DNA from: Propionibacteriaceae bacterium
GTDB lineage: Bacteria > Actinomycetota > Actinomycetes > Propionibacteriales > Propionibacteriaceae
Length of the DNA stretch: 11,201 nucleotides
Assembly: GCA_020438595.1 (NCBI GenBank)
Contig: JAGQUI010000050.1
Span: 1 to 11,201 of the forward strand
Direction: 5' to 3'
Made by a program: the position numbers and the translations under genes. Below are positions 3,379 to 11,201 of the stretch, one piece after another. The notes beneath the pieces are model-generated. The model saw nothing but the letters and a program-made list of their open reading frames with translations, was not told the origin of the DNA and did no database searches. Numbering within the stretch: the stretch's first letter is position 1; each line of letters opens with the position of its first letter.

Positions 3379-3927
3379 TCAGCCGAAGACGTCCGCGGTG
3401 GTGACCGTCCCGGCCTCGCGCCCGGGGGCCTCCTGGTAGGTCCAGTACAGGTTGGTGTGCGCGATCACCGCGTCCGGGGCGGGCGCACCCCAGGCGGTCA
3501 GGTCCTCGGTGGTGTGCGCGTCGGAGACCAGCACGGTGTCGTAGCCGCGGGTGAAGGCGCCGTGCAGGGTCGAGCGGATGCAGGCGTCGGTCTGGGCGCC
3601 CGCGAGGTAGAGCCGGCCCACGCCGCCGTCGGCCAGAACCTGTTCGAGGTCGGTGCCCTCGAAGGCGTCCCCGTAGAGCTTCTCCACGCGCGCGTCTACG
3701 TCGGCCACCTCGAGTTCGGGCACGATCTGCCAGGCCTCGCTGCCGTGGGTGCGGCCCTCGGCCACGTCCTGCACCCAGATCACACCCACGCCCGCGGCGC
3801 GCGCCCGTTCCACGGACGTGCGGACGTTCGCCAGCACCTGGTCGCGGTCGTGCACGTCGGCCACGACGCCGTTCTGCACGTCGATCACCACGAGGGCGGA
3901 GTTGGGTCGGCCAGTGAGGGTGGTCAT
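3379..3927 (-). CDS. Isochorismatase-family cysteine hydrolase
   Basis: A 182-residue cytosolic alpha/beta hydrolase of the isochorismatase/nicotinamidase superfamily. The catalytic triad can be placed: Asp16 in ALVVIDVQNG, Lys83 in VEKLYGDAFEGTDLEQVL, and Cys116 in LAGAQTDACIRST. The residues before the Cys (GAQTDAC) match the usual G-x-x-T-D-x-C signature. Length is normal for a single-domain member. The family hydrolyses isochorismate, nicotinamide, N-carbamoyl compounds or related amides. The Phe89 region (GDAFEGTDLE) resembles the YcaC/isochorismatase-like subgroup rather than PncA, so nicotinamidase is less likely; the substrate is open. The ATG at 3927 has a clear Shine-Dalgarno, AGGAGA (3937-3932). 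Its neighbours give no pathway, and the methyltransferase downstream appears to have its own promoter. Confidence 0.92.
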   Translation of the reverse strand: MTTLTGRPNSALVVIDVQNGVVADVHDRDQVLANVRTSVERARAAGVGVIWVQDVAEGRTHGSEAWQIVPELEVADVDARVEKLYGDAFEGTDLEQVLADGGVGRLYLAGAQTDACIRSTLHGAFTRGYDTVLVSDAHTTEDLTAWGAPAPDAVIAHTNLYWTYQEAPGREAGTVTTADVFG

Positions 3928-4019: not shown

Positions 4020-4454
4020 GTGACGTACCCGCCATTCCCGGGCCAGCCCGGCACGTACCCGCCGCAGTTCCCGGGTCTCTACCCCGGACACTGACCTGGT
4101 CCGCGTGCACATCCAGGGCAGCCAGCTCACCTCGAACCTGATCGTGCCGTCCCTGCTCCTCGACGGCCGCCCGGTCGCGTCCCGTTACGGCGAGAACGCC
4201 TACCAGTTGCCCGCCGGACGGCACCGGGTCGAGCTCTACGGGCAGTGGCTGCGCCGCTACGGCCAGGCGCTGCTCGACGTGGACATCGCTCCCGGTGCCG
4301 CGGTCGACGTGTTCTACGCGGCGCCGTGGCACCAGTTCACGACCGCAGCATCGGGTTCGTGAAGCAGGCCCGCAAGGGGGTCGGCGGGCTCGTGGCCACG
4401 TCGGTGCTGCTCGTGGTCGTGCTGGTGTTCCTGGTCCAGACGATCGTGTCCTGA
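4020..4454 (+). pseudogene. Small Pro-rich, C-terminally membrane-anchored protein, broken by two compensating frameshifts
   Basis: The intact gene appears to start at GTG 4020 and end at TGA 4452-4454, giving 144 residues in three blocks. Block 1 (frame of 4020) encodes a Pro/Gly/Tyr-rich tail, MTYPPFPGQPGTYPPQFPG, and meets TGA at 4092. Block 2 (frame of 4105) encodes the folded part. Block 3 (frame of 4020 again) encodes SIGFVKQARKGVGG and a hydrophobic anchor, ending in VQTIVS. One extra C in the CCCC run at 4082-4085 explains the first shift: removing it gives YPDTDLVRVHIQGS. One missing G near 4345 explains the second: restoring it gives HQFTTGSIGFVKQ. The net shift is zero. I recall actinobacterial proteins with this Pro-rich/beta-domain/single-TM layout but know no function. 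It is either a true pseudogene or a case of two sequencing errors in GC-rich DNA. Confidence 0.7.
4105..4362 (+). CDS. Longest open segment of the frameshifted gene (central domain)
   Basis: This is the part a gene caller would report: GTG at 4105 to TGA at 4360-4362, 85 residues. It holds the central domain, with SNLIVPSLLLDGRPVASRYG, the turn LPAGRHRVELYGQWLRRYGQA, and AAVDVFYAAPWHQFTT. The pattern of short hydrophobic strands with the phrase PAGRHRVELY resembles a small beta-sandwich that displays a bound group or ligand, but I do not recognise a named family. The last residues (AASGS) come from reading past the lost base and do not belong to the original protein. Without the downstream block it has no membrane anchor, so as it stands the product would be soluble or unstable. 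No Shine-Dalgarno precedes the GTG, which argues against this being an independent gene. Confidence 0.5.
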   Translation: MHIQGSQLTSNLIVPSLLLDGRPVASRYGENAYQLPAGRHRVELYGQWLRRYGQALLDVDIAPGAAVDVFYAAPWHQFTTAASGS

Positions 4455-4457
4455 CCC

Positions 4458-4489
4458 GGACCGAGTGGGGACGGTTCCTCACTCGGTCC
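4458..4489 (+). repeat. Hairpin repeat copy 1
   Basis: This 32-nt element has arms GGACCGAGT and ACTCGGTCC and the invariant core GGGGACGGTTCCT. It folds into a 14-bp stem (one G-T pair) with a CGGT loop. It begins 3 nt after the stop of the Pro-rich gene, in that gene's sense. It is 11 nt from copy 2, which has the opposite orientation. Probable terminator or REP-like element; no target-site duplication is visible. Confidence 0.85.
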
Positions 4490-4500
4490 ATTCCCGGGGT

Positions 4501-4533
4501 GGACCGAGTCAGGAACCGTCCCCCACTCGGTCC
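4501..4533 (-). repeat. Hairpin repeat copy 2, forming the 3' end of purT
   Basis: On the minus strand the element reads GGACCGAGT, then GGGGGACGGTTCCTG, then ACTCGGTCC (33 nt). Unlike the other copies, its base before the right arm is G, which creates the TGA stop of purT at 4511-4509. The codons for DRVGDGS of PurT lie within it. With copy 1 it forms an inverted pair between the convergent Pro-rich and purT genes. Confidence 0.85.
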
Positions 4534-5720
4534 AGGGTGATGGTCAGGGCCGCCGCGGCCGCCCGGGCGCGTTCGCGGGCCTGGTCGACGTCCGCGCCCC
4601 GGGCCAGCGTGACCGCCACGCGGCGGCGTCCGGACACCGACGGCTTGCCGAACAGCCGCACCTGCGCGGTCGGGACGGCCAGGGCTGCGTCCACGCCGCC
4701 GAACCGGGGGACGCCGCTGCCCTCGGCCAGCACCGCGCAGGACGCCGCAGCGGGCTCGCTGCCGATGCGCTCGGCGCCGCCGGCGGGCAGCCCGAGCACG
4801 GCGCGGGCGTGCAGCGCGAACTCCGAGAGGTCCTGCGACACCATCGTGACCATCCCGGTGTCGTGCGGACGCGGGCTCACCTCGGAGAACAGCACGTCCT
4901 CGCCGACGATGAACAACTCCACCCCGAACAGGCCCCAGCCGCCGAGCGCCCCGGTCACCGCCGCGGCCATCTGCTGCGCCTTCGCCAGCGCCGCGGCCGG
5001 CAGTGCGGCGGGCTGCCACGACTCGCGGTAGTCGCCGTCGACCTGGACGTGCCCGACCGGGTCGAGGAACGACGTGCCGCCCGAGTGCCGGATCGTGAGC
5101 AGGGTGATCTCGGAGTCGAACTCCACGAAGCCCTCGACGATGCAGCGTCCCTCCCCGGCGCGTCCGCCCTCCTGGGCGTAGCGCCACGACTCGGCCACGC
5201 CGTCGGCGGAGCGCAGCACCGACTGCCCCTTGCCCGAGGACGACATCACCGGCTTCACCACGCACGGGAAGCCCAATTCGGCCGCCGCGGACGCGAGCTC
5301 CGCCTCCGTCTCGACGAACCGGTACGGCGAAGTGGCCAGGCCGAGTTCCTCGGCGGCGAGGCGTCGGATGCCCTCCCGGTTCATGGTCAGTTGCGTGGCC
5401 CGCGCGGTGGGCACTACCCGGACGCCGGCGGCCTCCACCTTGGCCAGCGCGTCCGTGGCGATCGCCTCCACCTCGGGCACCACCACGTGCGGCGCCTCGA
5501 GCCGGATGATCTGGCGCAGCGCCGCCGGGTCGAGCATGTCGATCGCGTACGAGCGGTGGGCCACCTGCATCGCCGGGGCGTCGGAGTAGCGGTCGACGGC
5601 GACCACCTCGGCCCCGAGCCGCTGCAGCTCGATCGCGACCTCCTTGCCGAGTTCGCCGGCGCCGAGCAGCATCACGCGGGTGGCGGACGCGGACAGCGGC
5701 GTCCCGATCTCTACGGTCAT
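4509..5720 (-). CDS. purT: Formate-dependent phosphoribosylglycinamide formyltransferase (PurT)
   Basis: Cytosolic ATP-grasp enzyme that formylates GAR with formate and ATP in the third step of purine synthesis, an alternative to the folate-dependent PurN. The match to the E. coli enzyme as I know it is close throughout: [20 protein letters not shown] (14-33), [18 protein letters not shown] (40-57), [20 protein letters not shown] (108-127), [14 protein letters not shown] (154-167), the ATP-grasp metal site [28 protein letters not shown] (263-290) and QVRLFGKP (353-360). The ATG at 5720 gives 403 residues, near the family length; an in-frame ATG at 5753 would add 11 residues with no counterpart in the family. 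The C-terminus is odd: the last eight residues, LDRVGDGS, and the stop come from the hairpin repeat at 4501-4533. It lies 55 bp behind the DUF1801 gene and may be transcribed with it. Confidence 0.96.
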
Positions 5721-5775
5721 GGCGCCATCCAACCAAACAGAGAGTGATCCCACGTCCCGTGTTCGGGAGGCAGCT

Positions 5776-6150
5776 TCACTTCGTGGTCTCGTCGAGGAAG
5801 CCGTGCCGGGCCAGCACCGCGTCCACGAACTCCTTCAGCGCCGGCTTCGCGGCCTCGTTGGCGTACTTCACGCTCACCGAGCCCTTGCCGCCGAACGCGC
5901 CGGGAATGGCCTGCTGGGCCGCCGCGACCAGGTCGAAGTCGATCGCGTGCGCGGAGAAGTGGCCCTTCGCCGCGGTGAACATGACGTAGCCCTTCAGGTA
6001 GCTGTCGAAGAATCGGTACATCGGCACCTGCCGGAACATGATCGGCTCCAGCCGGGGCGCCCGTGCGGCCACATGGTCCCAGAACTCCTGCAGCCACAGC
6101 CGGCCGGCTTCCGGGGCCTCGTCGAGGTACTGCTGCGGTGAATCGGCCAT
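5776..6150 (-). CDS. DUF1801 (YdhG-like) protein
   Basis: A 124-residue soluble protein of the DUF1801/YdhG superfamily. The recognisable part is [37 protein letters not shown] (40-76), where family members usually carry a P-x-Y/W motif and a hydrophobic FxxxKxHxSxH strand. KGHFSAHA (62-69) fits this. It is followed by [12 protein letters not shown] (88-99) and a C-terminal helix. The B. subtilis relative YdhG/Fra has been described as a frataxin-like iron chaperone, but most members have no assigned function, so none is claimed here. It starts 3 bp after the stop of the anti-sigma-position gene, with GAGG just ahead of the ATG, so it is translated from the sigma-factor operon. Length is typical and nothing is missing. 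Confidence 0.8.
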
Positions 6151-6153
6151 GCC

Positions 6154-6756
6154 TCAGCGTAGTTCGGACAGGTCCGCCCAGCCCCCGACTCCGTCGTTGC
6201 CCATCCCCTCCAGGTCGACGACCCTGGTCGAGATGGTGGCCAGCAGCTTCTCGCCGGTGTATGCGTCGAAGACCAGCGTGAACACCGTGCCGGAGCCGTC
6301 CGCCGTCGCGCCCTCCAGCCGCGTGCAGTCCGGACAGGTGAAGTCGCCGATCAGCTGGACCAGCACCACCTGTCGCCAGGCGCCCTGCTCGGGCGGCGTC
6401 TCGCGGAGCAGCTGCTCCTGCACCGTGCCGATCGTGGTCAGGGTCTGCTCGGCCTCGACCAGCGACGTGGTCTGGATGGCGCGCACCTGCGTCCGGACCA
6501 GGCGGGTAACGTCTCGCAGGGTCGTGGTCGGCCCGGTCGGCGTCGCTGATGCGGCCGGCACGGCGGTGATCGGCTGTCCGGACAGGTTCGTCCAGACCAC
6601 TCCCCCCGTGGCGAGCACGGCGACGGCCGCCGCTGCGGCGATCCCGGTGTTCCGCCGCCGTGCAGCACGGCCGAGTGCGGCGTCCAGGTCGGGCTCGGCG
6701 ACGTCCGGTGCCTGCCACTGTTCGCCCCGCTCCCGCAGCAGTTCGTCAATGGTCAT
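6154..6756 (-). CDS. Single-pass membrane protein in anti-sigma position, with CPDC motif
   Basis: A 200-residue protein whose ATG overlaps the stop of the ECF sigma gene (ATGA), a strong sign of translational coupling and of a sigma/anti-sigma pair. Layout: an acidic-basic cytoplasmic part (1-36, ending RAARRRN), one transmembrane helix (about 38-57), a Thr/Pro/Ala-rich linker (62-79) and an extracytoplasmic domain to residue 200. The cytoplasmic part is too short for a classical zinc anti-sigma domain and has no HxxxCxxC motif, so binding to the sigma factor is inferred from context only. The outer domain contains GDFTCPDCTRLEGA with a CxxC pair (Cys141, Cys144), its only cysteines, as in disulfide or metal sites. 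I recognise no named family. Alternatives are a lipid-side sensor or a protein regulated by, rather than regulating, the sigma factor. Confidence 0.72.
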   Translation of the reverse strand: MTIDELLRERGEQWQAPDVAEPDLDAALGRAARRRNTGIAAAAAVAVLATGGVVWTNLSGQPITAVPAASATPTGPTTTLRDVTRLVRTQVRAIQTTSLVEAEQTLTTIGTVQEQLLRETPPEQGAWRQVVLVQLIGDFTCPDCTRLEGATADGSGTVFTLVFDAYTGEKLLATISTRVVDLEGMGNDGVGGWADLSELR

Positions 6757-7280
6757 CGGTAGTCCTCCCCGAGCAGGGCGCGCAGGCGCTTCCGCGCGTC
6801 CGAGAGCGTGGATTTCACGGTGCCCTCCGAGCACCGCATCACCTCGGCGACCTCGTCGAGCTTCAGCCCGAGGTAGTAGTGCAGGTCGACGGCCAGGCGC
6901 TGCCGTGACGTCAGCCGGGCCAGCGCGCGTTCGAGGTCGACGGACGCGGTGGCGTCCGCTCCGGCGGGAGCCGGGCCACCGTCCTCGGGCAGCACCGTCG
7001 AGCGCGACAGCCAACGGGTCGCCTGCCGCCACGCCTTGCGGCGCTGGTCGGCGGTGATCGCCAGCAGCCAATTGCGGGCGGTGCCCCGCTCCGGGTCGAA
7101 CTGGGCCCGCTTGCGCCACGCGTTCGCGAGCGCGTCGGCGAGGATGTCGTCGGCGGCGGAACCCGAACGGGACGCCAGGCGCGCCATCGCCGGCCAGTGC
7201 GGCCGCACCCATTCGGTGAACGCGTCCCGGCTGTCGAGGTTGGACTGCGCGTCGGGGTTCCGCGCCTGCACCTGTGTCAC
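6753..7280 (-). CDS. ECF-type RNA polymerase sigma factor
   Basis: A 175-residue group IV sigma factor directing RNA polymerase to a small set of promoters. Sigma region 2 spans about 20-88, with the core signature DDILADALANAWRKRAQFDPERGTARNWLLAITADQRRKAWR (44-85) in the familiar fDpxRGtaraWLltIarn pattern. A linker rich in Pro, Ala and Asp follows (95-114). Region 4 spans about 116-170, with the HTH LKLDEVAEVMRCSEGTVKSTLSDARKRLR (139-167). No extra C-terminal domain is present. The start is GTG 7280; a second GTG at 7271 is better placed behind the GGG run and is a real alternative, costing three residues. It heads a minus-strand operon with the membrane protein, DUF1801 and possibly purT, and diverges from the DUF202 operon. 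No matching pair of self-recognised promoters is obvious in the 73-bp spacer. Confidence 0.93.
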   Translation of the reverse strand: MTQVQARNPDAQSNLDSRDAFTEWVRPHWPAMARLASRSGSAADDILADALANAWRKRAQFDPERGTARNWLLAITADQRRKAWRQATRWLSRSTVLPEDGGPAPAGADATASVDLERALARLTSRQRLAVDLHYYLGLKLDEVAEVMRCSEGTVKSTLSDARKRLRALLGEDYR

Positions 7281-7291
7281 ACCCTGTCTAC

Positions 7292-7310
7292 CCCTTCACC
7301 GCCGGAAGGG
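7292..7310. promoter_or_regulatory. Inverted repeat in the sigma/DUF202 divergent spacer
   Basis: CCCTTC (7292-7297) and GAAGGG (7305-7310) form a 6-bp inverted repeat with a 7-nt gap, in the 73-bp spacer between the sigma gene start (7280) and the DUF202 start (7354). The position suits an operator or a 5' hairpin of the sigma mRNA. The repeat is short and may be chance in GC-rich DNA. Confidence 0.3.
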
Positions 7311-7340
7311 TTGGGTCGAGCCTAATCGGAGCCCCGGTCG

Positions 7341-7346
7341 TAGGGT
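7341..7346 (+). promoter_or_regulatory. -10-like element before the DUF202 operon
   Basis: TAGGGT fits the TANNNT form and ends 7 nt before the GTG at 7354, the leaderless spacing. No Shine-Dalgarno lies between them, which favours this reading. No clear -35 is visible about 17 bp upstream. Confidence 0.4.
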
Positions 7347-7353
7347 GTCGCAC

Positions 7354-7728
7354 GTGGAGCAGAACGAATCCCGGCCCCGGTTCCCGCGCTCGGTGTACGG
7401 GCGCGGCAGCGAACCGGACGCGCGGTTCAGCCTCGCCAACGAGCGGACGTTCCTGGCCTGGATCGGCGCCGCGCTGGCCCTGGTCTCGGTCGGCGTCGGC
7501 CTGGAATCGCTCGCGCTCAACCTCAACCCGGGCCTGCGGCTGGCCGCCTCGATCGTGCTGGTCGCCGCGGGCATCGCCTGCCCCGTCCAGGCCTGGTTCG
7601 GCTGGGCCAGGGTCGAGTCGGCGTTGCGTGAACGCCGTCCGCTGCCGTTCAGCCCGCTGCTGGTCGTCCTCCCGGCCGCGCTCGGCCTGGCCGGTGTCCT
7701 CGTCCTGCTCGCACTGGTCGTGAAGTGA
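7354..7728 (+). CDS. DUF202/YidH-family membrane protein, first of a tandem pair
   Basis: A 124-residue inner-membrane protein. A polar N-terminus of about 23 residues leads into the family motif RFSLANERTFLAWIGAALAL (24-43). Three transmembrane helices follow, at about 33-54, 61-81 and 101-123. YidH and DUF202 proteins have no established biochemical role. The start is the GTG at 7354, chosen because it gives the normal short N-terminus and sits 7 nt behind a TAGGGT hexamer. The frame is open far upstream, but that region is antisense to the sigma factor. The next gene begins inside this one's stop (GTGA at 7725-7728), so the two are translationally coupled. The pair may work as a heteromer, which is an inference from coupling and shared family. 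Confidence 0.9.
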   Translation: MEQNESRPRFPRSVYGRGSEPDARFSLANERTFLAWIGAALALVSVGVGLESLALNLNPGLRLAASIVLVAAGIACPVQAWFGWARVESALRERRPLPFSPLLVVLPAALGLAGVLVLLALVVK

Positions 7729-8075
7729 CCAGCCCCGACGAGGTCTGGGATGCCGGCCTCCAGCCCGAGCGCACCGGCCTGGCCTGGCAACGGGCGGCGC
7801 TGGCCTTTCTCGGCCTCGGCCTCGCACTGCCGAAACTCGCCTGGCCCGCCCTCGGCGCCTGGGCCGTCCCGCCCGCCGCGCTCGTCGTCGCCGGAGCGAT
7901 CAGCCTGTTCCTCATCGCCCACCGCCGCTACCGCGCCACCCACGACACCCTGACCAGCAGCCGCAGTCTCCGCAACGGCGGACGGCTCGTCCTCACCGCC
8001 ACCGTGCTCAGCCTGCTGCTCGCCCTCGTCGCCGCCGTCCTGGTGGCCGCGGCGGCCCTGGGGCGAATCGGCTGA
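7725..8075 (+). CDS. DUF202 family membrane protein, second of a tandem pair
   Basis: A 116-residue membrane protein distantly related to the preceding gene product. The family motif is GLQPERTGLAWQRAALAFLG (11-30), the counterpart of LANERTFLAWIGAALAL in its neighbour. Three hydrophobic segments are seen, at about 21-38, 47-65 and 87-111, with a basic loop (HRRYRATHD) after the second. The GTG start at 7725 overlaps the upstream stop by four bases, and the PAP2 gene starts 4 bp after its own stop, so all three are one transcription unit. The short-helix architecture and the small size are normal for the family; no function is known to me. Confidence 0.88.
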   Translation: MTSPDEVWDAGLQPERTGLAWQRAALAFLGLGLALPKLAWPALGAWAVPPAALVVAGAISLFLIAHRRYRATHDTLTSSRSLRNGGRLVLTATVLSLLLALVAAVLVAAAALGRIG

Positions 8076-8079
8076 ACCC

Positions 8080-8742
8080 GTGCCGAACCCGCACCCGTAC
8101 CGCCAGGCCGTCCGGGGACTGCCGGCGGCGGTGGGACTCGCCGCGGCGAACGTGCTGATCGGGCGCGCCCTCGCCCGCAACGCGAGGGTGCAGGAGCGCG
8201 AGACCGACGTGATCCGTGCCCTCCAGGCCCGCGGCTCGCCCGGCCGGGACCGGCTGGCGAGGCTGGTCTCGACCGCTGCCGACGTCCCGGCGAGCATCGC
8301 CCACGGCGCGGTCGCGGTCGCAGTGCTCTGGCGGTGGACGCGTGATCCGCGCCTGGCCGTGGCACCCGCCGTGGCCCTCGTCGTGGAGACGGCGGTCTAC
8401 CTCGTCGCCGGAGCGCTGGTGAACCGCGACCGTCCGGGCGTCCCCCGGCTGGACCGCGACCAGCCCACCTCGTCCTTCCCGTCCGGGCACCAGGGCGCGA
8501 CCGTCGCCCTGATGGTGGTCCACCTGGCCGTGGCGCGACGCGTCGCGAACCCCTGGCTGCGTACCGCGATCACCGCGGCGTGCGTGGCCTACCCGTCGAC
8601 GCTCGCCTGGGCGCGTGTCCACACGGGCCTGCACTACCCGTCCGACGTCGTCGCGGGCACCCTGAACGGTGTCGCCGCCGGCCTGATCGCCCTGGACCGA
8701 GTCGGGGACGGTTCCTTACTTGGTCCACCCCCGCCGACCTGA
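8080..8742 (+). CDS. PAP2-superfamily membrane phosphatase
   Basis: A 220-residue polytopic membrane phosphatase of the PAP2 superfamily, which dephosphorylates lipid phosphates such as phosphatidic acid or undecaprenyl pyrophosphate. Active-site motifs are in order: RP at 118-119 (ALVNRDRP), SSFPSGH (131-137, with His137 the acid/base) and ARVHTGLHYPSD (178-189, giving Arg179, the nucleophile His185 and Asp189). The Lys that begins the classical KX6RP motif is Gly here (Gly111), as I believe occurs in some actinobacterial members. The start is GTG 8080, 4 bp after the second DUF202 gene. The C-terminus is abnormal: from about Leu205 on, [12 protein letters not shown] is read from a hairpin repeat, and the stop lies in the start of the second unit of a 56-bp tandem duplication. 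The original protein probably ended near residue 204 or soon after. Confidence 0.92.
   Translation: MPNPHPYRQAVRGLPAAVGLAAANVLIGRALARNARVQERETDVIRALQARGSPGRDRLARLVSTAADVPASIAHGAVAVAVLWRWTRDPRLAVAPAVALVVETAVYLVAGALVNRDRPGVPRLDRDQPTSSFPSGHQGATVALMVVHLAVARRVANPWLRTAITAACVAYPSTLAWARVHTGLHYPSDVVAGTLNGVAAGLIALDRVGDGSLLGPPPPT
8694..8726 (+). repeat. Hairpin repeat copy 3, inside the PAP2 coding region
   Basis: The element reads GGACCGAGT, then CGGGGACGGTTCCTT, then ACTTGGTCC. It is translated in the PAP2 frame as DRVGDGSLLGP, the same frame in which copy 2 is read in purT. The right-arm change C to T leaves a G-U pair in RNA of the PAP2 sense strand, so the stem survives. Confidence 0.85.
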
Positions 8743-8749
8743 TCGCCCC

Positions 8750-8782
8750 GGACCGAGTGGGGGACGGTTCCTCACTCGGTCC
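8750..8782 (+). repeat. Hairpin repeat copy 4
   Basis: The element reads GGACCGAGT, then GGGGGACGGTTCCTC, then ACTCGGTCC, with perfect 9-bp arms. It lies between the PAP2 stop (8742) and the stop of the convergent TetR gene (8787) and is the best candidate for a terminator of both. It is the second unit of the tandem duplication. Confidence 0.85.
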
Positions 8783-8786
8783 ACCT

Positions 8787-9377
8787 TCAGGGACGCAGCG
8801 CGGCCAGCCCGAGCGAGAGCAGGTCGTCCAGGCGGACGTCGCCGTCCACGGTGCGCGGCTCGTGCAGGTGGCCGCTGATCTGCAGCTGGGCGAGTCCGTG
8901 CAGGAAGACCCACAGCACGGTGGCGAGCTCGCGCGGCGCCCCGGGCCCGAGCTCGCCGTCGGCCTGCGCCTGCTGGACGAGCTCGCGCAGCGCGGCCATG
9001 CCGTCGTCGGCGGCCGACTCCAGTTCGGGCGTCGACGCGGTGAGTGGGCTGCCGCCGAACACGAGCTGGTAGTGCTGTGGCTGCTCGATCACGTGGTCGA
9101 GGTAGGCGGCGCAGCCGGCGTGCAGCCGGGACGCCGGGTCGGACGGCGCCGCCGACGCGCGGCGGATCCGCTCCGCCAGCTGGCCCAGCGAGCGGGCGGC
9201 GAGGGCGGCCAACAGGTCGGACTTGTCCGTGAAGTGCCGGTAGGGCGCCGACCGGGACACCCCGGCCGCGGAGCCCACCGACCGCAGTGTGACCGCATCA
9301 GGGCCGCCCGCCTCCAGCAGCGTGCTCGCGGCCGCCACGATCGCAGTGCGGGTCGGTTCGGGGTTCCGAGGGCTCAT
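8787..9377 (-). CDS. TetR family regulator with WHG-type C-terminal domain
   Basis: A 196-residue repressor. The DNA-binding domain has the HTH at about residues 29-50 (VTLRSVGSAAGVSRSAPYRHF), where SAPYRHF is the common variant seen in this TetR subgroup. The C-terminal part has LATVLWVFLHGLAQLQISGHL (151-171), which matches the WHG-type ligand domain. The ATG at 9377 follows a good promoter (TTGACA, 16 bp, TAGGAT) by only 6 nt, so the mRNA is probably leaderless. It is divergent from the SnoaL-like gene, and the 17-bp palindrome at 9397-9413 covers the -35 boxes of both, so it most likely represses itself and that gene. The effector is unknown. Its 3' end faces hairpin repeats 3 and 4. Confidence 0.94.
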   Translation of the reverse strand: MSPRNPEPTRTAIVAAASTLLEAGGPDAVTLRSVGSAAGVSRSAPYRHFTDKSDLLAALAARSLGQLAERIRRASAAPSDPASRLHAGCAAYLDHVIEQPQHYQLVFGGSPLTASTPELESAADDGMAALRELVQQAQADGELGPGAPRELATVLWVFLHGLAQLQISGHLHEPRTVDGDVRLDDLLSLGLAALRP

Positions 9378-9383
9378 GGACTG

Positions 9384-9444
9384 ATCCTAGAGCTGCTGTT
9401 GACATTGTCAACAAACGACGTAAGCTGACAGTGTCAACAAACGA
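9384..9444. promoter_or_regulatory. Divergent promoters and TetR operator
   Basis: The palindrome TGTTGACATTGTCAACA (9397-9413) has perfect 8-bp arms. It carries TTGACA on both strands: the plus copy (9399-9404) with TAAGCT at 9421-9426 for the SnoaL gene, and the minus copy (9411-9406) with TAGGAT at 9389-9384 for the TetR gene. A second site, TGACA-G-TGTCA, is at 9426-9436, and TGTCAACAAACGA occurs exactly twice (9406-9418 and 9432-9444), 26 bp apart. Repressor binding would shut both promoters. Confidence 0.8.
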
Positions 9445-9452
9445 GAGGAACC

Positions 9453-9830
9453 ATGATGACCACCGCAGACCTCACCGATCTGGCCCGTGACTACCTGCAG
9501 ACCTGGGCCGACCCCGATCCCGCCCGCCGCCGCACCGCGATTGACGAGCTCTGGGCGCCGGACGGCCGGCTCGTGATCTCGCCGATCGGGCTCGTCGTCG
9601 AAGGAGTGGACGCGATCGACGCCCACACCACGCGTGTCCACGACGAGAACATCGACGGCCGGGGCATGTCCTTCACCTATGACCAGCACGCGGAGGCCGG
9701 CGACGCGGCCCTGCTGCGCTGGTCGATGCGCGCCCCGGACGGCACGGCCGTGGGCCGCGGCGTCGACGTCGTGTTCCGCGATGAGGACGGCCGTGTCCGC
9801 ACCGTCTACATGTTCATGGGCGTCGACTGA
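9453..9830 (+). CDS. SnoaL-like / NTF2-fold protein
   Basis: A 125-residue soluble protein with the NTF2-like cone fold expected of SnoaL-related proteins. The N-terminal helices (LTDLARDYLQTWADPDPARRRTAIDELWAPDGRLVISP) are typical, with WAPDGRL the usual end of helix 3 and start of the sheet. VVEGVDAIDAHTTRVHDE follows, then the strands DAALLRWSMRAPDG and AVGRGVDVVFRDEDGRVRTVYMFMG. Such proteins include polyketide cyclases, small isomerases and binding proteins; no catalytic residues specific to one activity are evident. Two adjacent ATG codons (9453 and 9456) are possible. The Shine-Dalgarno GAGAGGAA (9443-9450) is better spaced for the second. Control by the divergent TetR regulator suggests induction by a small molecule that this protein binds or converts, which is an inference. 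Confidence 0.88.
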   Translation: MMTTADLTDLARDYLQTWADPDPARRRTAIDELWAPDGRLVISPIGLVVEGVDAIDAHTTRVHDENIDGRGMSFTYDQHAEAGDAALLRWSMRAPDGTAVGRGVDVVFRDEDGRVRTVYMFMGVD

Positions 9831-9847
9831 GCCCCGTCAGCCCGAGT

Positions 9848-9880
9848 GGACCGAGTAAGGAACCGTCCCCGACCCGGTCC
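9848..9880 (-). repeat. Hairpin repeat copy 5
   Basis: On the minus strand the element reads GGACCGGGT, then CGGGGACGGTTCCTT, then ACTCGGTCC. It begins 2 nt after the stop of the activase gene, in that gene's sense, and lies between it and the convergent SnoaL gene. The arm change A to G gives a G-U pair in that gene's RNA, keeping the stem. Confidence 0.85.
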
Positions 9881-9882
9881 GG

Positions 9883-11201
9883 TCAGGAGCGCTTGAGGGC
9901 GTCCTCCCAGGCGTCCACGGGGGAGACCGGGACGATCGGGAGCGCGCGCGGAGCCTGCGCCTCGTGGGTCTCCTCCAGCCGGAACCCGCCGGACGCGGCG
10001 TGCCGCTTGTGGGCGGTCGCGACCATCAGCTTGATCCGGTTCAGCTGGTTCGTCGCGGACGCGCCCGGGTCGTAGTCCACGCTGACGACGTTCGCCTCGG
10101 GGTGGCGGCGCCGCAACTCCGCGAACATCCCCTTGCCAACCACGTGGTTCGGCAGGCACGCGAACGGCTGCGCGCAGATGATGTTCGGCGCTCCGAGCTC
10201 GATCAGCTCGACCATCTCCGCGGTGAGCAGCCAGCCCTCGCCCGCGCGGGTGCCGATCGAGATGACCCCGTCCGCCTTCTTCGCGAGGTCGGCCATCTTC
10301 GGCGGCACGTCGAACTTGCCGTTGGTCCTGGCCAGCGCGGTCACCACCGGCTGTTGGAACTTCTCGATCAGCCACAGCGCCATCCGCTTGAAGTGGTGCG
10401 AGCGCGGCCCGATGCCCATCGTCTCGAACTGGAACTGCGAGGAGTACAGCGGCATCAGGAAGAACTGCAGGATGCCGGGCAGCACCGCCTCGCAGTCCTC
10501 GCCCTCGACCACGTCGACCACGTGGTTGTTGGCGTCCGGGTGGAACTTCACCAGGATCTCGCCGACGATCCCGACCCGCGGCTTGCGCGGGACGTCCCGC
10601 AGCGGCAGCGCGTCGAACTCCTTCACGATCCGGCGGATCAGGCTCGTGTAGCCGATGCTGCGGCCCAGCGACCTCGAGTAGCCGCCGTGCTGCAGGAACT
10701 CCTGGCAGATCACGTCCCAGGTGCGGTACAGCGCCTGCGCGCTGCCCGGCTGCCGCTCGTACGGACGCACGCGCAGCAGCAGCGTCTGCAGCAGGTCGCC
10801 CAGGATCAGCGCCTGCACGGCAGGCACCAGCAGCGCCGGCGTCATCTTGAAGCCCGGGTTGCTCTCCAGGCCCTGCACGCTGATCGCCAGCACCGGCACC
10901 TGCGGGTAACCGGCGTCGGCCAGCGCCTTGCGCAGCAGGCCCACGTAGTTCGTGGCCCGGCACATGCCACCGGTCTGGGTGATCGCCACGGACGTGTGGT
11001 CGGGGTCGGCCTCGCCGGAGCGGATCTTGTTCACGAGCTGGCCGACCACCATGATCGCGGGGAAGCAGGCGTCGTTGTTGACGTACTTCAGGCCCACCTC
11101 GACGTCGTCGCCGCTCGCGTTCTCGAGCAGCTGGAAGTTCAGGCCGAGCTTGCGCAGCACCGGCATCACCAGCCGGAAGTGGATCGGCGCCATCTGCGGC
11201 G
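9883..11201 (-). CDS. 2-hydroxyacyl-CoA dehydratase activase-type protein, C-terminal part, partial
   Basis: The window holds the last 438 codons and the frame stays open at the right edge, so the ATG at 11193 is internal. The sequence matches the C-terminal region of the large fused BadF/BcrA-type activase proteins: MAPIHFRL at the start, then GLKYVNNDACFPAIMVVGQL, AITQTGGMCRATNY, a SVQGLESNPGFK stretch and PRVGIVGEILVKFHPDANN. The family couples ATP hydrolysis on an ASKHA-fold activase domain (upstream, not in the window) to one-electron reduction of a [4Fe-4S] dehydratase. Cysteines that could bind clusters, numbered from that Met, are Cys43, Cys78, Cys340 and Cys346. The TGA is at 9885-9883, 2 nt before hairpin repeat 5. 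The substrate is unknown; this class is better known from anaerobes, yet large fused forms occur in actinobacteria. Confidence 0.85.
   Translation of the reverse strand, partial: PQMAPIHFRLVMPVLRKLGLNFQLLENASGDDVEVGLKYVNNDACFPAIMVVGQLVNKIRSGEADPDHTSVAITQTGGMCRATNYVGLLRKALADAGYPQVPVLAISVQGLESNPGFKMTPALLVPAVQALILGDLLQTLLLRVRPYERQPGSAQALYRTWDVICQEFLQHGGYSRSLGRSIGYTSLIRRIVKEFDALPLRDVPRKPRVGIVGEILVKFHPDANNHVVDVVEGEDCEAVLPGILQFFLMPLYSSQFQFETMGIGPRSHHFKRMALWLIEKFQQPVVTALARTNGKFDVPPKMADLAKKADGVISIGTRAGEGWLLTAEMVELIELGAPNIICAQPFACLPNHVVGKGMFAELRRRHPEANVVSVDYDPGASATNQLNRIKLMVATAHKRHAASGGFRLEETHEAQAPRALPIVPVSPVDAWEDALKRS

Follow-up and report, generated by a model that had tools for sequence, protein, structure and literature searches.

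The systems closest to the repeats reported here are of two described kinds. TIRtrons (TIRYT) are described as consisting of a Y1 transposase gene located between terminal inverted repeats (TIRs) with a GGGGWSAS motif, the protein ending in a C-terminal domain of the helix-turn-helix (HTH) type; their repeats can be dispersed, paired or clustered, form moderately abundant families, and can be self-complementary in one S. maltophilia family (PMC3733652, PMC6006769). The repetitive extragenic palindromes (REPs), BIMEs and REPINs of E. coli, Pseudomonas and Stenotrophomonas, which are associated with the transposase RAYT (TnpA-REP), are described as short palindromes in inverted pairs, each transposase gene having inverted repeats of its own on its flanks, with repeats placed between tandem and convergent genes and stop codons supplied by repeats (PMC2817692, PMC3733652). 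Here, we analysed an 11,201-nucleotide stretch of a Propionibacteriaceae genome (contig JAGQUI010000050.1, hereafter the window), in which a first-pass annotation had described five hairpin elements with near-perfect 9-bp arms as REP/BIME-like mobile repeats. Our results indicate that these repeats very probably belong to the REP/TIR kind of short mobile elements that are non-autonomous; in related genomes, a Y1/HUH TnpA of REP-associated type is encoded between inverted copies of such elements. The system is closest to TIRtrons and represents a known kind in what is, by the literature searched, a new host group.

Each of the five elements (Table 1) contained the 13-base core GGGGACGGTTCCT, and 9, 9, 8, 9 and 8 of 9 outer-arm positions were paired in copies 1–5, in agreement with the annotation. 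The core occurs five times in the window and once in total over 200 dinucleotide shuffles of it. Rfam gave 0 hits at the gathering threshold, one exact pattern gave 0 matches in viral contigs, and plasmids gave no match. An exact pattern scan of genome contigs yielded 40 stretches from six metagenome-assembled genomes: G001 (UBA6238), G002 (PROP2), G003 (a Propionicimonas), G004 (HGW-Actinobacteria-5), G005 (a Propioniciclava) and G006 (Chersky_165). G001 and G006 are titled Propionibacteriaceae, the titles of G002 and G004 are broader, and G003 and G005 bear the names of what we take to be Propionibacteriaceae genera; G004 and G005 also occur in the sample of G002's family. The numbers of exact cores in G001–G006, which include cores carrying arms other than the window's, were 63, 81, 40, 69, 1 and 21, respectively, and the reversed control gave 0 in all six. 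The window is syntenic with G004 (80–93% identity by segment) and with G001 (75–90%). The copies in the relatives are many, dispersed over many contigs, often arranged as inverted pairs and mostly extragenic; together with the linked Y1 (HUH) genes and the presence/absence differences between species described below, this bears out the REP/BIME-like character that had been proposed.

A linked TnpA-REP (Y1) transposase, which the first-pass annotation had suggested looking for, was found in five of the six relatives, with 11 genes over the Y1_Tnp cut-off; G005, the only genome without one, has a single core. As in TIRtrons, each of the 11 genes lies between inverted elements with a GGGGAC box (GGGGACAG, GGGGACGG or GGGGACTG) and a gene-specific arm, and at one locus (L071) the element on the downstream side extends into the end of the coding region. 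The window's arm is carried by two of the genes, L075 in G001 and L077 in G004. A Y---NP frame was present at 27 of all 29 loci inspected, and 26 of these 27 had at least one element; the exceptions were L083 and L093 (no Y---NP frame), L098 (no element) and L097 (an element on one side only). Protein identity co-varied with arm similarity over 26 genes (Mantel r 0.54, 0/2000 permutations).

All 11 proteins combine HUH and Y---NP motifs (NH[VA]H and Y[VI]W[NHD]NP, the latter mostly YVWNNP), the combination that defines TnpA-REP class 2 in Quentin 2018 (PMC6006769). For subclass 2.1, characterised there by NHVH, FQ, Y[IV]HLNP, SS and an HTH tail, the proteins here show NH[VA]H (11/11), FQ (10/11) and SS (11/11), whereas the Y motif is W-N-NP-like and closer to subclass 2.4. 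The three transposases scanned contained the Y1_Tnp domain and weak HTH matches at approximately residues 215–249, below cut-offs; their best NCBIfam match was REP_Tyr_transpos, at 59–71 bits under a cut-off of 80. An AlphaFold model of the L071 protein had a mean predicted confidence (pLDDT) of 76, with its C-terminal helices (residues 191–252) mostly at 81–95, and its best fold match was 4er8, the structure of a REP transposase in complex with a REP hairpin (E 3.8e-6, TM 0.41/0.67); a PDB search by sequence gave 0 matches at E <= 0.01. A protein search with L077 retrieved 3597 relatives at E <= 1e-20, and among the 120 listed, several were named REP element-mobilizing transposase RayT, the organism names given being Propionicimonas, Micropruina or Propionibacteriaceae.

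Several features separate the system from its described counterparts. Compared with TIRtrons, the host is Propionibacteriaceae, the Y motif is mostly of the form given above, only the GGGGACAG box fits GGGGWSAS fully, with the window's GGGGACGG off at one position, and matches of GGGGACGGTTC reach 374 per genome, whereas the families described are moderately abundant (PMC3733652, PMC6006769). A C-terminal HTH is probable here, with sub-cut-off matches in three proteins. Unlike RAYT-associated REPs, the elements share a common GGGGAC box inside the palindrome; GT[AG]G, which in GTAG REPs stands at the 5' foot of the hairpin, occurs there in 0 copies on the core strand, and GTGG on the opposite strand in 4/5 window, 44/85 G001 and 18/31 G004 copies. 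The IS200/IS605 family (IS608, ISDra2) shares the modelled HUH/Y1 fold, but subclass 1.1 has Y---Q in place of Y---NP, and here there are 1–5 genes per positive genome. According to PMC6006769, the Actinobacteridae in its sample had IS200-type (subclass 1.1) members only, and no REP-like repeats were identified beside its HTH-tailed subclass 2.1 genes. REP-like counts for one family member, Acidipropionibacterium thoenii, are given in PMC12306157, from a general palindrome tool, and our search of the open-access literature found no report of such a system in Propionibacteriaceae.

Some transposase loci showed further features. L075, L077 and L078 (in G001, G004 and G003) have different repeat families and apparently the same neighbouring gene, guessed to be cobalamin adenosyltransferase-like; this locus looks old, as if its repeats had changed. 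L072, L076, L079 and L080 mark a second apparently common chromosomal site in four genomes with four different arms, and the downstream context of L073 resembles it by eye. Head-to-tail arrays of GGGGACGG boxes flank some genes (L076, L087 and L089).

Among 147 sampled genomes of the family, PF01797 (Y1_Tnp) was found in 12, with 1–5 genes each, and at least 14 matches of GGGGACGGTTC were found in 19. These repeat-rich genomes comprised 11 of the 12 Y1_Tnp-positive genomes and 8 of the 135 others (Fisher 7e-11); the sole positive genome that was not repeat-rich, G033, had a match that gave no Y---NP frame. With few candidates scored per genome (6 for class and 8 for order among the rows listed), the transposase profile matched 1/394 class-level genomes (G002 itself) and 7/293 order-level genomes, each of the seven being among the positives of the family sample. 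Overall, Y---NP genes occur in a sparse subset of one actinobacterial family, together with dispersed, transposase-matched and often palindromic repeats.

The position of the elements relative to genes was taken from a strict census of window-type elements (up to 3 mismatches, 117 copies) in 20 regions of G001 and 20 of G004, which were chosen for holding cores and contained 63/63 and 43/69 exact cores, respectively. It replaces a looser census (up to 4 mismatches), in which other G004 families were picked up as well and one palindrome might be scored as two; two results given below, the number of GDGS tails and the orientations present at G001 sites, rest on the looser one. Gene junctions held 115/117 strict copies. 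Window-type elements occupied 23/100 convergent, 26/378 tandem and 3/96 divergent junctions, with convergent junctions enriched over tandem (Fisher 1.9e-5) and divergent ones (3.1e-5). The first-pass description of the repeats as confined to tail-to-tail junctions therefore stands as an enrichment per junction but not as a confinement, since tandem sites were as many as convergent ones and three divergent sites were occupied. All 26 tandem sites were closer to the upstream stop than to the downstream start; the placement rule is gene 3' ends. The nearest element was in sense orientation at 35/46 convergent gene ends (p 5e-4) and 19/26 tandem ends (p 0.03), and at 56/68 convergent ends when all GGGGAC-box elements were considered. 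In the looser census, 18 G001/G004 gene ends overlapped an element and 8 of these ended in GDGS-stop, encoded by GGG GAC GGT TCC plus stop, as in the window's purT; REP termini often supply stop codons, according to PMC3733652.

Independent gene calls for the window (home-made caller; 88% coding; Pfam matches for 12 of the 17 proteins scanned) gave four convergent junctions, 2692|2697, 4454|4509, 8742|8787 and 9830|9883, three of which are occupied, as had been noted. The purT stop codon (4509-4511, - strand) lies inside copy 2, and the relatives of purT in G006 and G004 end in ITLD-stop. The duplication units that hold copies 3 and 4 are 91% identical, with a start-to-start distance of 56, and include the last PAP2 codons; the two copies are probably not independent insertions, because both lie in this one tandem duplication. 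Relative to PAP2, which ends 8 bp away, copy 4 is in sense orientation; relative to TetR, whose stop is 5 bp away, it is in antisense. The last gene in Table 1 encodes a protein of 436 residues, and its DNA is 90–93% identical in G001 and G004.

Table 1. Elements and neighbouring genes in the window (strands of elements, + or -, assigned by the orientation of the core)
Feature	Positions	Strand	Remarks
Element copy 1	4458-4489	+	32 bp; sense to gene ending at 4454
Element copy 2	4501-4533	-	inverted partner of copy 1; holds purT stop codon
Element copy 3	8694-8726	+	within open reading frame end of PAP2 gene
Element copy 4	8750-8782	+	second unit of local tandem duplication
Element copy 5	9848-9880	-	where G004 and G001 have the right half of an inverted pair
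Tandem duplication of PAP2 3' end and element	8675-8785	+	55-nt units 8675-8729 and 8731-8785
purT-like gene	4509-5720	-	last codons (RVGDGS stop) encoded by copy 2
PAP2-family gene	8080-8742	+	runs into copy 3 (LDRVGDGS...)
TetR regulator	8787-9377	-	absent at matching site in G004 and G001
SnoaL-like gene	9453-9830	+	divergent from TetR; likewise absent in G004 and G001
Gene without Pfam match	9883-11193	-	adjoins copy 5; G004 and G001 have matching DNA in synteny

Orthologous junctions differ in their elements between species. Behind purT, the pair in the window is window-type, the pair in G004 is of the type found on either side of that genome's L073 transposase gene, and G006 has no element. 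Three copies are present in G001 where G004 has none, and two in G002 where G001, G004 and G006 have none. In the L123 block, a single region that was itself chosen for its G004 elements, 20 comparable G004/G001 junctions comprised 4 filled in both genomes, 1 filled only in each of the two, and 14 empty (Fisher 0.0049), and all 4 doubly filled junctions had different families. A table of orthologous junctions, classified by our own arm types and including transposase loci, contained 26 pairs in which both junctions were occupied (families different in 21 and shared in 5), and its enrichment is biased because the loci were partly chosen around elements; the window's two occupied junctions were compared with the relatives by eye instead. 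At the six doubly occupied G001/G004 junctions without a transposase gene, 4 differed and 2 shared a family, a split that, by a rough estimate, could also arise from separate insertions at favoured junctions. Element-by-element conversion between families was rejected for G004, where 33/39 multi-copy sites held a single family against 9.8 expected and where three weak chimera candidates were seen, perhaps misclassified; whole-unit gain and loss is therefore preferred. At the PAP2 junction, the family is common to the window, G004 and G001. The latter two have an intact inverted pair, whereas the window has its pair halves separated by the TetR and SnoaL genes (8787-9830); both genes are absent at the matching G004 and G001 site. 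Since G001, the more distant genome there, lacks both, their gain in the window's lineage is the simplest explanation.

RNA folds of the core strand ranged from -20.9 to -27.8 kcal/mol in the window elements (z -3.1 to -6.5). In G001, complementarity between a copy's own arms was 4.3 of 9, equal to permuted pairings, a self-complementary left arm being absent. The corresponding value in G002 and G004 was 6.7; G004 exceeded all 200 permutations, and G002 did not, because its copies are alike. G001 copies can pair only with an inverted neighbour: 23/34 sites hold both orientations and 11/34 hold one only, so that about a third are unable to fold even as inverted pairs. Because G001 copies lack the left arm, the hairpin is not conserved in each copy, and a single-copy palindrome as the conserved unit is ruled out by this genome. 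The first-pass reading is supported with respect to the REP/BIME-like character, through dispersal, Y1 linkage and presence/absence, and not with respect to a hairpin in every copy.

The same annotation had inferred a use of the elements as bidirectional terminators. Maintenance by the host as such terminators, or as stabilisers of mRNA 3' ends, with the hairpin kept for ending or protecting convergent transcripts, would fit the strong hairpins, their greater stability on the core strand in all five copies, the agreement of that strand with the strand of the closest gene end in copies 1, 2, 3 and 5, and the convergent enrichment with its sense bias close behind stop codons. However, a consensus terminator scan of the window matched none of the elements (single match at 3909-3925), no window element showed the hairpin followed by a T-run of an intrinsic terminator, and single G001 copies mostly lack a pairing arm, with one orientation only at 11/34 sites. 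Furthermore, the elements go together with a transposase gene, and presence/absence and differing families at orthologous junctions mean that a given site needs no given element. The terminator role is therefore unsupported and this explanation as a whole unlikely, although effects on mRNA 3' ends may occur. We regard as similarly doubtful a translation-linked role, as for E. coli REPs, which stall ribosomes and lower output when no more than about 15 nt from a stop codon, according to PMC12306157: at 21/26 tandem sites the element is between -30 and +20 relative to the upstream stop, but that position is equally expected from selection against insertions elsewhere. A passive spread of repeats, through replication slippage and recombination and without any transposase, is highly improbable, as it would account for the window's 56-bp tandem duplication, three tandem copies at one G001 junction, the mostly single-family multi-copy sites of G004 and the repeat-rich genomes without a transposase gene, but not for dispersal over many contigs, the flanking of 11/11 transposase genes in six genomes, the arm/protein co-variation or the genome-level association of repeats with Y1_Tnp.

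Several observations weigh against transposase-driven mobility as the explanation. The threshold of 14 for repeat-rich genomes was fixed after the counts were seen. Eight repeat-rich family genomes lacked a Y1_Tnp match, and the transposase profile, in a search without a positive control, found nothing in them; two, G079 and G103, had 330 and 281 core matches and no detectable transposase gene. Either incomplete assembly (an assembly gap) or a lost driver could underlie such genomes. In G002, 48 strict window-type copies were counted in the scan loci, and its two transposase genes have other arms. The candidate cognate transposases come from the genomes of relatives. The sense bias was not significant in G004 alone (convergent 14/20, p 0.12; tandem likewise) and was gone at tandem junctions when all GGGGAC-box elements were counted (29/52). 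No precise excision or target rule could be resolved among the relatives compared, because these are only about 75–93% identical.

Mobilisation by the Y1 transposase nevertheless remains our preferred explanation, and the following steps are proposed from sequence comparison. TnpA, which has a probable C-terminal HTH, would most likely recognise the GGGGAC[AG]G box together with the transposase-specific 3' arm, and would act on single-stranded DNA to move or copy the elements, in many cases as inverted pairs. Copies landing just behind stop codons would survive, and those in promoters or genes would be removed by selection. We tentatively suggest that gene-end junctions might act as lasting docking sites, which the transposase lineage active in a species refills with its own repeat family, so that the occupied positions would last from species to species while the repeat family turns over, and which may trap genes such as TetR/SnoaL. 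Since positive genomes have 1–5 transposase genes, and syntenic relatives offer empty, filled and differently filled junctions, these genomes form a useful natural series for how REP families arise, settle at gene ends and replace one another.

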